Part shown: positions 9,325-13,807 of the stretch, piece after piece | How the letters are laid out: each line of letters starts with the position of its first letter | Numbering within the stretch: the stretch's first letter is position 1 | NCBI GenBank assembly: GCA_036375715.1 | Contig: DASVBS010000079.1 | Span: 1-64,000 of the forward strand | Direction: 5' to 3' | Length of the DNA stretch: 64,000 nt | Source of the DNA: Longimicrobiaceae bacterium | Lineage (GTDB): Bacteria > Gemmatimonadota > Gemmatimonadetes > Longimicrobiales > Longimicrobiaceae | The notes under the pieces: generated by a model | Told to the model about the DNA's origin: nothing | Seen by the model: only the letters and a program-made list of their open reading frames with translations | The model's database searches: none | Program-made: the position numbers and the translations under genes

Positions 9325-9611
9325 CCGCTGAACGCCGCCGCCCCGGCCCGCGGCGGGGCGAGCGACCACGGTTCGAAGCTACGAGCACCTTCCTCCCGCC
9401 TACCCGCGTCCCATTCCTCCGGGCCGGGCCGCTGCGTCGTGGGTGCGCCGCTGGCGAGGCGGCGCCCGTCCGTCCCCGCTGCAGCGAGGCCCGGCTATCG
9501 AGTGCCGCCTGGCCGACTATGGACATCGCGGTGGCGATGCGCTAGTCATCAGCCTCTTCCGTGCTGTCCGAACGCGGGCCGCGCGCCACTCTGTATAAAG
9601 ATCACAGCGAA

Positions 9612-12392
9612 ATGAGCCGCTGGCAGGGATTACAGGTGAAGTCGGAAGGAACGGGCATCTCGCAACCGTTGTCGCAGCAGGTAAACCTGCTGGGCGAGAT
9701 GCTCGGTCAGGCGATCCGCGAGCAGGCGGGGGAAGGCATCTTCAACCTCGTCGAGGATCTCCGACAACTCTGTAAACGGGCGGCCAACGAGAATGATCCC
9801 GCGGCCCGCGATCGGGCGGAAGAGATCATCCGCGGGCTCGGACAGAACGAGCTCGTGTGGTTGCTGCGCGCCTATAGCGCCTTCTTCCACCTGGTGAACC
9901 AGGCGGAGCAGCAGGAGATCATCCGCATCAATCGCGAGCGGGCACGCGGGGCGGGCGGGCACGTCGGGCGACCGGACTCGATCGACGAGGCGATCGGGAA
10001 GATGAAGGGCGCCGGCGTGCCCATCGAAAAGGCACTGGAGCTGATCGGGCGACTGGACATCCAGCCCACGCTCACCGCTCATCCCACCGAAGCGCGCCGC
10101 CGCAGCATCCTCGACAAGCAACGGCGGATCGCCACGCTGCTCACCCAGCTGCGGCTCGACCCGACGCCGGACGAGGAAGAAGACGCCCTCGACGAGCTCT
10201 ACGCGCACATCTCCTTGCTGTTGGCCACGGCGGAGGTGCGGGTGGAGCGCCCCACCGTGCGGGAGGAGGTGGAGCAGGGCCTCTATTTCCTGCGCGGCAG
10301 CATCTGGGAGGCCGTCCCCGCGATTCATCGGGACGTGGAGCGCGCGCTTCGCAAGCACTACGGCGAGGTGCACGAGCTGCCGGTCTTTCTGCGCTACCGG
10401 TCGTGGATCGGGAGCGACCGCGACGGCAATCCGAACGTCACGCCCGAGGTGACTCGCTGGACGCTGGCCGTGCAGCGACAGACGGCACTGCGAAAGCACC
10501 TCGAGGAGCTGCGGCGCCTGCAGCAGGAACTGAGCATCTCGCAGCGCCGCGCGGCGATCCCGGAGTCGCTCTACCGTTCCCTCGAAGCGGATGAGCAGGA
10601 GGTGCCCCTCGACGAGGCTCGCCGTCGCCAGTACCAGGACGAGCCCTACCGGCTGAAGCTGGTCTACATGATGACCCGGCTTGGCTGGCTGCTCGAGGAC
10701 CTGGAAGCGGGCGACCCCTACCGCTCCGGCTACACGAGCGAACGCTACGTCGCCGATCTGGACCTGATCGACAGCGCGCTACGCGAGAGCGGCTTCGCCG
10801 AGGCGGCGGATCACAGCAACCTGTGGCGCGCGCGAGTGCTCGCCCGCTCCTTTGGCTTCCACCTGGCGACCCTCGACGTGCGCCAGCACAGCCGGATCCA
10901 CGAGCAGGCCCTCACCGAGATCTTGCGGCTCGCCGGGGTCACGGAGAACTACGCCGCCCTGTCCGAGGAGGAAAAGCTGGCGGTGCTCACGGCCGAGCTT
11001 CGTAATCCGCGCCCGCTACTGGCGCGCGGGGCGGAGCTCCCGAAGGGTGCCCGCGAGGTGTTGGAAACCTTCGCGCTGATGCGCCAGGCGATCCAGGCCG
11101 AACCAGCTTCGATCCGGTGCTACATCGTGAGCATGACGCACGCGATCAGCGACCTGTTGGAGCCGATGCTGCTGGCGAAGGAGGCCGGCCTCGGGACACC
11201 TGAGGGCGGCTTCCCGGCGCTCGATTTCGTGCCGCTGTTCGAGACCATCGACGACCTGGAGACGTCGCACAACCTGATGCGGCAGCTGTTCGAGCATCCT
11301 GCTTATCGGCCGCAGCTCGAAGCTCGTGGCCGCTTCCAGGAGATCATGCTCGGCTACTCGGACAGCAACAAGGACGGCGGGTACTGGATGGCCAACTGGG
11401 CGCTGCACAAGGCGCAGCGCAGCCTGGGGGCGGTCTGTCGCGAGTACGACGTCGATTTCCGCCTCTTCCACGGGCGGGGCGGCACCGTCGGCCGCGGCGG
11501 TGGGCGCGCCAACCAGGCGATCCTCGCCATGCCGCGGGTGGCGCACAACGGCCGCATCCGGCTCACGGAGCAGGGAGAGGTCATCTCCTTCCGCTATGCG
11601 CTCCCCGAGATCGCGCGCCGGCACCTGGAGCAGCTCGTGAGCGCCATGCTCGCCGCGTTCGCTCCGGAAGAGCCAGTGGCGGCGCCGGCGGATCGTCGAG
11701 AAGAGCTGATGGAGAAGGTGGCGCGGCGATCGATGCAGGCCTACCGCGAGCTGATTGACGATCCCGGCCTCTGGCGGTGGTACATCCACGTCACCCCGAT
11801 CGAGCAGATCAGCCGCCTCCCCATCGCATCCCGACCGGTCTCCCGGAAGTCCGCCTCGGAGGTAGATTTCGAGGGCCTGCGCGCGATTCCCTGGGTCTTT
11901 GCCTGGACGCAGGCACGGTACCTGGTGCCGGGCTGGTTCGGCGTGGGCAAGGCTCTGCAGCAGACGATCGAGGAGGATCCCGGAGCGGAGGAAGCGCTGC
12001 GCAAGCTGTCGCGGGAGTGGCCGTTCTTCGATGCGGTGCTGGAGAGCGCCCAACGGGAGATGGCGCGCGCGCGCTTGCCGATCTCGGAGCGCTACGCCCG
12101 GCTGGACGACCGGCATAACGGGCCGGATTACCATCGCTGGATCGCCGACGATTTCGAGCGTGCGCGGGAAATGATCCTGCGCATCACCGGCAACGGTGAG
12201 CTGCTGGAGAACAGCCCGGTGATCCGCAAGTCGATCGCCCTTCGCAACCCCTATACTGACGTTCTCAACCTCCTGCAGATCGAGCTCATTCGCCGTTCCC
12301 GCGAGGGGAGCGACATGGACGACGAGGAGCTCCGCCAGGACATCTTCCTGAGCATCAACGGCATCGCCGCGGCGATGCAGAGCACCGGCTAG
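9612..12392 (+). CDS. ppc: Phosphoenolpyruvate carboxylase
   Basis: This enzyme carboxylates phosphoenolpyruvate with bicarbonate to oxaloacetate, refilling the TCA cycle. The 926-residue protein carries the family signatures: LTAHPTEARRR with the catalytic His157, GYSDSNKDGGY, the FHGRGGTVGRGGG loop, and a C-terminus (SINGIAAAMQSTG) close to the usual NTG ending. I take the ATG at 9612; the frame is open to 9561 but without conserved sequence. A TATAAA hexamer at 9594-9599 lies only 13 bases before the start and no good -35 is visible. If it is a promoter, the mRNA would be nearly leaderless. Confidence 0.96.
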   Translation: MSRWQGLQVKSEGTGISQPLSQQVNLLGEMLGQAIREQAGEGIFNLVEDLRQLCKRAANENDPAARDRAEEIIRGLGQNELVWLLRAYSAFFHLVNQAEQQEIIRINRERARGAGGHVGRPDSIDEAIGKMKGAGVPIEKALELIGRLDIQPTLTAHPTEARRRSILDKQRRIATLLTQLRLDPTPDEEEDALDELYAHISLLLATAEVRVERPTVREEVEQGLYFLRGSIWEAVPAIHRDVERALRKHYGEVHELPVFLRYRSWIGSDRDGNPNVTPEVTRWTLAVQRQTALRKHLEELRRLQQELSISQRRAAIPESLYRSLEADEQEVPLDEARRRQYQDEPYRLKLVYMMTRLGWLLEDLEAGDPYRSGYTSERYVADLDLIDSALRESGFAEAADHSNLWRARVLARSFGFHLATLDVRQHSRIHEQALTEILRLAGVTENYAALSEEEKLAVLTAELRNPRPLLARGAELPKGAREVLETFALMRQAIQAEPASIRCYIVSMTHAISDLLEPMLLAKEAGLGTPEGGFPALDFVPLFETIDDLETSHNLMRQLFEHPAYRPQLEARGRFQEIMLGYSDSNKDGGYWMANWALHKAQRSLGAVCREYDVDFRLFHGRGGTVGRGGGRANQAILAMPRVAHNGRIRLTEQGEVISFRYALPEIARRHLEQLVSAMLAAFAPEEPVAAPADRREELMEKVARRSMQAYRELIDDPGLWRWYIHVTPIEQISRLPIASRPVSRKSASEVDFEGLRAIPWVFAWTQARYLVPGWFGVGKALQQTIEEDPGAEEALRKLSREWPFFDAVLESAQREMARARLPISERYARLDDRHNGPDYHRWIADDFERAREMILRITGNGELLENSPVIRKSIALRNPYTDVLNLLQIELIRRSREGSDMDDEELRQDIFLSINGIAAAMQSTG

Positions 12393-12440
12393 GGCCTTCG
12401 TTCGCGCGGATTTGCGCCTGACGACCTCGCCTCGTTGCCG

Positions 12441-12469
12441 TTGACTTCACCCCTGCCGCGGCGCATATT
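12441..12469 (+). promoter_or_regulatory. Sigma70-type promoter of metK
   Basis: TTGACT (12441-12446) and CATATT (12464-12469) are separated by exactly 17 bases. They lie about 50 bases beyond the ppc stop and just upstream of the SAM-II-like element. Transcription from here would begin near 12476 and give a structured leader of about 185 nt before metK. Confidence 0.55.
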
Positions 12470-12487
12470 CAGTTCGCGCCCCGGGGG

Positions 12488-12545
12488 CGCCGCGGCGATT
12501 TCTCGCGATTGCTCCGCGTAATAAATGTGCTAAACCGCCCGGGAG
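12488..12545 (+). promoter_or_regulatory. SAM-II-like riboswitch aptamer upstream of metK
   Basis: The leader reads, in order: a P1 strand CGCGG (12491-12495), GATTT (12497-12501), a 7-nt loop, ATTGC (12508-12512), the P1 partner CCGCG (12514-12518), then TAATAAATGTGCTAAA (12519-12534). This is the order and near-identical spacing of the conserved blocks of SAM-II riboswitches (GAUUU, UUGC, P1 strand, U-AUAAAUGU, GCUAAA). SAM-II elements bind S-adenosylmethionine and are known upstream of metK, metA and related genes. Placement directly before metK fits. The downstream pseudoknot pairing is less clear: loop CTCG (12502-12505) could pair with CGGG (12540-12543) with one wobble. The call comes from pattern recognition, not a covariance search. 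Confidence 0.75.
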
Positions 12546-12580
12546 TCCCGTGCGGCGCACGCACGGGACTCCTCGCATTT
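12542..12580 (+). terminator. Attenuator-like hairpin between the riboswitch and metK
   Basis: A perfect 12-bp stem, GGAGTCCCGTGC (12542-12553) with GCACGGGACTCC (12561-12572), closes a 7-nt loop and is followed by TCGCATTTT. It starts immediately after the SAM-II-like core and 90 bases before the metK start. It is therefore the natural expression platform: a terminator whose formation would depend on ligand binding. The T-run is short (four), so termination efficiency is uncertain. Confidence 0.6.
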
Positions 12581-12661
12581 TGGAGCGAAGGACGCCCCCC
12601 AGGCTGCGTCGCCGTCCCGGAGAGGCGGCACGTCGATAAATACCCTTCACTTCACGCAGCC

Positions 12662-13807
12662 ATGAGCACCCTCGAAGGAAAGCTCCGCGCCCCGGTCGCG
12701 ACGGGCACATACACGTTCACTTCCGAATCCGTGTCGGAGGGCCACCCGGACAAGGTCTGCGACTACATCGCGGATAGTGTCCTGGACGCACATCTCAACG
12801 CCGATCGGGCCAGCCGCGTTGCCTGCGAAGTCCTCTGCAAGGAGGACAACGTGATACTGGCGGGCGAGATCACCTCTGACGCCCAGGTCGATTACGACGC
12901 GCTGGTGCGCGAGGTGATCGCGGAAATCGGATATGTGGACGGGGATCAGCCGTTCCGGCCCGAGGCAGTCAAGGTGCAGTCCTTCATCACCAGTCAGTCG
13001 CAGGAGATCGCTCAGGGGGTGACGGCAAGCACTTCCCTCTCGGGCGAGCAGGGGGCGGGAGACCAGGGGATCATGTTCGGTTACGCGACCGACGAGACCC
13101 CGGAGTTGATGCCCCTGCCGATCCTCCTTGCCCACCGCCTTGCGCGCGTGCTCGCCGACCACCGGAAGCGGCGGACGGTAGACTGGCTGCGGCCCGACTC
13201 CAAAACGCAGGTGTCGGTGCTCTACGAGGGCAACGTGCCGGTCCGCGTGACCGACGTGCTCATCTCCACCCAGCACACTCCCGCCGTCACCCGTGACGCG
13301 ATCCACTCCTTCCTGGCTTCCACGGTGATCCCGGAGGCCCTGGGCGGCTGGTACCATGACGATCTGCGTGTGCTGACCAACCCGACCGGTTCGTTCGTGC
13401 AGGGAGGGCCCTCGGCCGATGCCGGTGTGACCGGGCGCAAGATCATCGTGGACACCTACGGGGGGATGGGCCGACACGGTGGGGGAGCCTTCAGCGGCAA
13501 GGATCCCTCGAAGGTGGATCGCTCCGGGGCCTACTTCTGCCGCTACGTGGCCCGCCAGGTGGTGAAGTCCGGCATCGCTCACAGGGCCGAGGTGCAGGTG
13601 GCTTACGCGATCGGCATGGCCAAGCCGGTCTCGGTGAAGGTGGACACCTTCGGCACCGGCGACGAGGCGGAGGCTGCGGAGTTCGTGCGTCGCTTCGACT
13701 TCCGCCCGGCGGCAATCGTCGAGCAGCTCGACCTGTTGCGCCCGATCTACCGGCAGACCACCAACTACGGCCATTTCGGGAAGCCGGGGCTGCCCTGGGA
13801 GGCCTAG
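12662..13807 (+). CDS. metK: S-adenosylmethionine synthetase
   Basis: This enzyme makes S-adenosylmethionine from methionine and ATP, supplying the methyl donor for the methyltransferases found later in the window. The 381-residue protein has the usual length and motifs: GHPDKVCDYIADSVLD near the N-terminus, GAGDQGIMFGYATDE, and GGGAFSGKDPSKVDRS in the phosphate-binding loop. The start at 12662 (MSTLEGK) follows the long leader. The open frame reaching back to 12509 overlaps the riboswitch and terminator and is not coding. Expression is likely feedback-controlled by SAM through the leader. Confidence 0.97.
   Translation: MSTLEGKLRAPVATGTYTFTSESVSEGHPDKVCDYIADSVLDAHLNADRASRVACEVLCKEDNVILAGEITSDAQVDYDALVREVIAEIGYVDGDQPFRPEAVKVQSFITSQSQEIAQGVTASTSLSGEQGAGDQGIMFGYATDETPELMPLPILLAHRLARVLADHRKRRTVDWLRPDSKTQVSVLYEGNVPVRVTDVLISTQHTPAVTRDAIHSFLASTVIPEALGGWYHDDLRVLTNPTGSFVQGGPSADAGVTGRKIIVDTYGGMGRHGGGAFSGKDPSKVDRSGAYFCRYVARQVVKSGIAHRAEVQVAYAIGMAKPVSVKVDTFGTGDEAEAAEFVRRFDFRPAAIVEQLDLLRPIYRQTTNYGHFGKPGLPWEA

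Follow-up and report, generated by a model that had tools for sequence, protein, structure and literature searches.

The window, i.e. the whole 64,000-nucleotide stretch of DNA analysed, contains an intergenic region flanked upstream by a PEP carboxylase gene (9561-12392) and downstream by metK (12662-13807), in which a promoter, a SAM-II-type aptamer and a hairpin follow one another:

12441..12469, + strand: sigma-70-like promoter from the promoter scan (TTGACT 12441-12446, 17-nt spacer, CATATT 12464-12469)
12487..12538, + strand: SAM-II-type aptamer core, divergent subtype (held-out model R1; RF00521 alignment)
12491..12495, + strand: P1 5′ strand, CGCGG (P1 pairing in 31 elements)
12497..12501, + strand: GATTT, third strand of the P2 triple helix (U10-U12 of SAM-II; sequence, roles mapped from PMC6061858)
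12505..12512, + strand: P2 5′ strand, GCG-A-UUGC (UUGC/GCUAAA positions invariant in 31 elements), including the ATTGC block at 12508-12512
12514..12518, + strand: P1 3′ strand, CCGCG (P1 pairing in 31 elements; partition-function folds)
12519-12528, + strand: TAATAAATGT, ten bases with no hairpin
12529..12538, + strand: P2 3′ strand, GCUAAA-C-CGC (sequence; mapping from PMC6061858), including the GCTAAA block at 12529-12534 and the terminal CGC at 12536-12538
12542..12572, + strand: 12-bp hairpin GGAGTCCCGTGC/GCACGGGACTCC, probable intrinsic terminator or attenuator (partition-function folds; homologous leaders)
12573..12583, + strand: weak tail TCGCATTTTGG, rejected by the terminator scan on its tail criterion
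12662..13807, + strand: metK, S-adenosylmethionine synthetase, 381 aa (Pfam PF00438/PF02772/PF02773)

The promoter-like TTGACT-17-CATATT of an earlier sequence-only reading was recovered with a 9/12 match as the only such match in 12350-12720 (shuffles average 0.0), and by eye, promoter-like hexamers can be seen upstream of P1, about as far away, in many of the homologous leaders. The host genome carries two metK genes, 56% identical (window 12662-13807 and G000:C65:16506-17579), the SAM-II leader being confined to the window copy. Given this second, element-free metK, SAM supply would not hang on the window copy alone.

The SAM-II blocks listed in that reading (a 5-bp P1, GATTT, ATTGC, TAATAAATGT and GCTAAA) are all in place, and positions 12487-12538 fold as an H-type pseudoknot of the SAM-II type, made of the P1 hairpin and P2. 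In P2, GCG (12505-12507) pairs with 12536-12538, UU with A12533 and A12532, and GC with 12529-12530; A12508 stands opposite A12534. Crystal structures of SAM-V and SAM-II (PMC6061858) show the role of each base in the UAAA of GC-U-AAA. The U is the pairing partner of the SAM adenine; the two A after it take part in U-A.U triples, together with the UU of UUGC and two third-strand U, and the sulfonium sits next to one of these; the last A holds SAM by its amino-acid end. Mapping by hand matched every one of these contacts (U11/U12, U20/U21, U44, A45-A47 and A19) in the window, at T12500, T12501, T12509, T12510, T12531 and A12532-A12534, plus A12508. U12531 is accordingly the predicted adenine-pairing U, and A12534 the predicted contact of the SAM carboxylate.

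The element shares with SAM-II (RF00521) the H-type pseudoknot, the GATTT third strand, the UUGC/GCUAAA core with all SAM contacts, the methionine/SAM genes downstream and a terminator-like hairpin after the aptamer. It differs in the joint above the core P2: canonical SAM-II has a two-by-two loop, whereas here a single bulged base, C12535, leads directly to GCG/CGC. SAM-V (6FZ0; RF01826; PMC6061858) has the same SAM-binding triple-helix core but is translational and adds a P3 hairpin; its lower P2 is 4 bp long. In the window, 12519-12528 forms no hairpin, the lower P2 is only 2 bp long and RF01826 finds no match. SAM-II long loops (RF01726), described as expanding the SAM-II class (PMC2864571), likewise gave no match to the window, even at lax thresholds.

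The gathering cut-off of the Rfam SAM-II model (RF00521, SAM_alpha) is 36 bits, and no Rfam family matched at gathering thresholds across the whole window. A lax scan of 700 bases yielded one match, RF00521 end to end at 12482-12554, with 18.2 bits and an E of 0.14 over 4227 families, which is about 3e-5 for one named family. Neither the gathering nor the lax scan matched SAM-V, SAM-II long loops, SAM-I, SAM/SAH or SAM-VI. The expectation that a SAM-family covariance model would recognise the element thus held for the full-length SAM-II alignment but not for the score, which we attribute to the one-base P2 joint. Since this score is below the gathering cut-off, the element is not filed as an RF00521 member; it is a divergent element of the SAM-II superfamily, of a subtype too altered for standard tools to recognise. 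A held-out model, R1, was built from 17 related elements (alignment A2) with the window left out. R1 found the window element at 77.6 bits (E 8e-18 per genome), and in 382 kb, including 80 metK loci of other phyla, the window was the only strong match (E 7e-19).

Sixty-one relatives were searched with the Rfam SAM-II model, which gave matches in 41, 12 of them above the cut-off; the genes behind these matches are mostly metH, metY, metX, hom, thrC and metK. A further copy, nearly identical, stands before metY in the host genome itself (L043). Searches with metK distinguished two types of the gene, the window type being 62-81% identical in the nearest relatives. Conservation in homologous metK leaders, on which the sequence-only reading had made its case depend, was observed in 16 of the 19 orthologous leaders fetched (letters such as CCGCGGCGATTTCTAGCGATTGCTCCGCGTTACAAATGTGCTAAACCGC); nine fetched leaders of other metK genes (L152-L160) showed no element.

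In 31 elements, 98.7% of the P1 cells are paired, with compensatory changes in three of its five pairs (19 cells vs 4.5 in shuffles), and shifting the pairing along lowers the paired share from 99% to at most 57%. In the same 31 elements, the four pairs of the P2 core are invariant and 100% paired; the count drew U24/U25 one base off the crystal-structure register, which is immaterial for invariant columns. The upper helix shows a compensatory change in L169, from GCG/CGC to ACG/CGT (GACG/CGTC). Also, an intermediate form, L217 (GATTGC...GCTAAAC with a longer loop), reaches 42.1 bits, over the Rfam cut-off, and so ties the window subtype to canonical SAM-II. Fold, contact residues, covariation, related metK leaders and shared methionine/SAM genes together support a SAM-II-like aptamer before metK, in line with the earlier assignment.

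Several variants of the element were observed in the course of this comparison. In about half of the related metK leaders (L134-L137, L139, L148, L149), GAGTT replaces GATTT (U10 to G), at a position that touches the adenine-binding U; the window keeps GATTT. L150 and L151 have SAM-II before another metK type with a 4-bp lower P2 (GUGC/GCAC), like SAM-V. In the metH leaders L010-L029, from the window's family, P1 and GATTT lie about two bases further apart; because metH starts soon after, these elements may act on translation. In L045, L031 and L033, SAM-II precedes the gene of a conserved but uncharacterised RimK-like ATP-grasp protein, which by virtue of this position may belong to methionine/SAM metabolism. 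A window-type SAM-II with its hairpin stands before a 72-aa ORF in L173 (6685-6775, +), and the same element is found in L172; both are phage contigs with portal, major head and scaffolding proteins, and a bacterial contig, L030, carries nearly the same element. Finally, in a gammaproteobacterial MAG (L089, 1366-1430), metK is immediately preceded by a SAM-II/V-like motif that includes a small hairpin.

The hairpin downstream of the aptamer is a perfect inverted repeat (12542-12553/12561-12572) with a 7-nt loop and a stem probability of 0.92-1.0 in partition-function folds. Its end lies 89 nt before the ATG of metK at 12662. The sequence-only reading was right about a perfect 12-bp hairpin directly after the aptamer but too favourable about its tail: the T-run is weak (TCGCATTTTGG, starting 5 nt past the stem), falls short of the T-run rule of the terminator scan, and the scan does not accept the window hairpin. 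Of 21 homologous leaders, 20 form a hairpin of -25 to -43 kcal/mol at this position, a few bases at most from P2, and its arms vary in sequence while remaining complementary. The T-run that follows is usually better there than in the window, 13 of the 21 leaders having at least five T among the first eight bases (counted on printed sequences). The element probably acts as an attenuator.

We also examined folding of the growing transcript. In the predicted fold of a window transcript ending at the hairpin 5′ arm, the probability of P1 is 0.06 and the arm pairs with the P1 5′ strand/GATTTCT; after synthesis of the 3′ arm the hairpin prevails, with a probability of 0.92-1.0. An OFF switch could work in this way. 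Against shuffled sequences, the antiterminator helix scored a mean z of -0.26 in 21 leaders and, in the window, a z of -1.2 (p 0.14); own arm-aptamer pairs were no stronger than swapped ones (permutation 0.94). Co-variation as support for the antiterminator was consequently rejected, as neither the swap nor the shuffle test backs this helix beyond base composition. Leader-peptide attenuation was rejected as well: the short ORF ATG TGC TAA, the only one in the aptamer, is absent from the metX and ATP-grasp leaders.

Our preferred interpretation, which we consider likely, is that the element is a riboswitch for SAM, a divergent subtype within the SAM-II superfamily, and reduces transcription of metK at high SAM levels. 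It would be an OFF switch that works by transcription attenuation. The parts, fold, conservation, covariation and gene context are observed as described above; we infer the ligand, the direction of switching and the antiterminator as follows. RNA would start a few bases before P1. With SAM, GATTT would dock in the P2 major groove and the ligand would sit between U12531 and A12534; with P1 and the pseudoknot locked, hairpin 12542-12572 would be free to form and transcription would end. Without SAM, the P1 5′ strand and GATTTCT would pair with the hairpin 5′ arm (about -15 kcal/mol), and this antiterminator pairing would let more polymerases reach metK. Counting against this model are the missed Rfam gathering score, the poor T-run, an antiterminator no better than composition and the element-free second metK.

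A SAM-sensing aptamer could instead act after transcription, by protection or exposure of the mRNA or on translation, with the hairpin mostly read through. The weak T-run of the window would fit such a mode, and some SAM-II elements are indeed translational or change RNA stability (PMC9373788). We regard it as unlikely here, however: the metK start lies 89 nt past the hairpin, no ribosome-binding site overlaps P2, and most homologous leaders combine the hairpin with a clear T-run. The tail TCGCATTTTGG and the second metK would suit a decayed switch, whose aptamer remains but which the poor T-run makes useless in the host. Intactness of the core and hairpin stem, and near-identity of the metY sister copy in the same genome, make decay highly improbable.

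Other readings concern the aptamer itself. The unusual P2 joint, with a single bulged base in place of the usual two-by-two loop, and the change of U10 to G in some relatives could point to a fold kept for a shifted ligand, e.g. SAH or another SAM relative. All known contact positions in the window nevertheless carry the SAM-II/SAM-V letter, including those that exclude SAH, and the downstream genes are the usual SAM-II targets; we give this possibility little credence, if marginally more than decay. Chance resemblance in GC-rich DNA, to which only the Rfam score under the cut-off lends itself, is already refuted by the comparative data (a held-out E of 8e-18, conservation in 16 related leaders, and covariation) and has a negligible probability.

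The regulatory SAM-II riboswitch that we favour for the window stands there as a single element. Tandem SAM-II/SAM-II and SAM-II/SAM-V leaders are known (PMC9481103), and similarly the window's metK-leader relatives pair SAM-II with another pseudoknot, itself SAM-II/V-like, and each of the two has a terminator of its own; they differ in that their second RNA matches no Rfam family. It occurs in two forms, R2 and R3, neither of which any Rfam SAM family recognises. Copies of the two forms are:

L139 2736-2832, - strand: R2
L132 1302-1393, + strand: R2
L169 1033-1135, + strand: R2
L170 1501-1591, - strand: R2
L146 1263-1348, + strand: R3
L206 503-577, - strand: R3
L217 1501-1578, + strand: R3
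L051 1358-1440, + strand: R3

R2 reads GCGCTTTGAA..GACAGCTTGGCGGGC...CCGCCTAAAGCGTCG plus its own terminator. Nine related metK leaders carry it downstream of SAM-II and of the terminator belonging to that element; it also follows SAM-II in tandem in L169 and stands alone in L170 and L171. It is a larger pseudoknot with a 5-bp lower P2, seen also before small uncharacterised ORFs. R3 combines GATTT, P2 CGACUUGACGG/CCGUCUAAGUCG and a P3 hairpin, and is present in the metK leaders L145-L147, in an Acidobacteriota MAG (L051) and in 45 of 298 genomes of the host's phylum. It stands before metK in L206, L208, L212, L215, L228 and L230, and upstream of SAM-II before metY/metX in L209, L216, L217, L219, L220, L222-L225, L229 and L231. 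Alignment of 32 R3 copies showed P2 100% paired, with compensatory changes at two P2 pairs and three P1 pairs. In layout it follows SAM-V, with P1, a third strand, a P2 whose lower part has five base pairs, and P3, but its core CUAAG has G in place of the SAM-contacting A.

Neither the window nor the rest of its genome yielded the second pseudoknot class. A weak R3 match at G000:C60 was discarded: it lacks the CTAAG core and falls within an open reading frame that looks like one for a dephospho-CoA kinase. The uncatalogued pseudoknot was also observed in L210, L211, L213, L218 and L221 before gene clusters with small uncharacterised proteins, followed in L210 and L221 by a helicase-like ORF (judged by eye); these clusters are possibly mobile elements. 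We regard the second pseudoknot RNA as a candidate class, with SAM as a first guess for its ligand because of the known tandem SAM-II and SAM-II/SAM-V leaders (PMC9481103). Since CUAAG replaces the carboxylate-contacting A by G, this core may bind SAM differently or bind another ligand. We hold in even balance the broader view that the window element belongs to a family of SAM-II-core variants in the phylum, including this Rfam-less SAM-V-like class (P1, GATTT, P2 CGAYUUGAYGG/CCGUCUAAGUCG, P3, terminator), which would give two-input control beside SAM-II.

SAM-II had been presumed exceptional in such a host. On the contrary, it exceeds the Rfam cut-off in 174 of 298 genomes from the host's phylum, against 0 of 14 controls, and R1 matches 124 of the 298. 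A report naming SAM-II together with the presumed phylum was not found in the open-access literature, where absence is weak evidence. SAM-II is a main SAM switch in a phylum for which that literature yielded no such report, with whole SAM-II subtypes escaping the standard models. One SAM-binding core is kept while the surrounding helix varies between SAM-II-like and SAM-V-like forms. If the broader view holds, leaders in which the SAM-V-like class sits beside SAM-II would be under two-input control, and the uncatalogued metK-leader RNA is directly testable for SAM binding.
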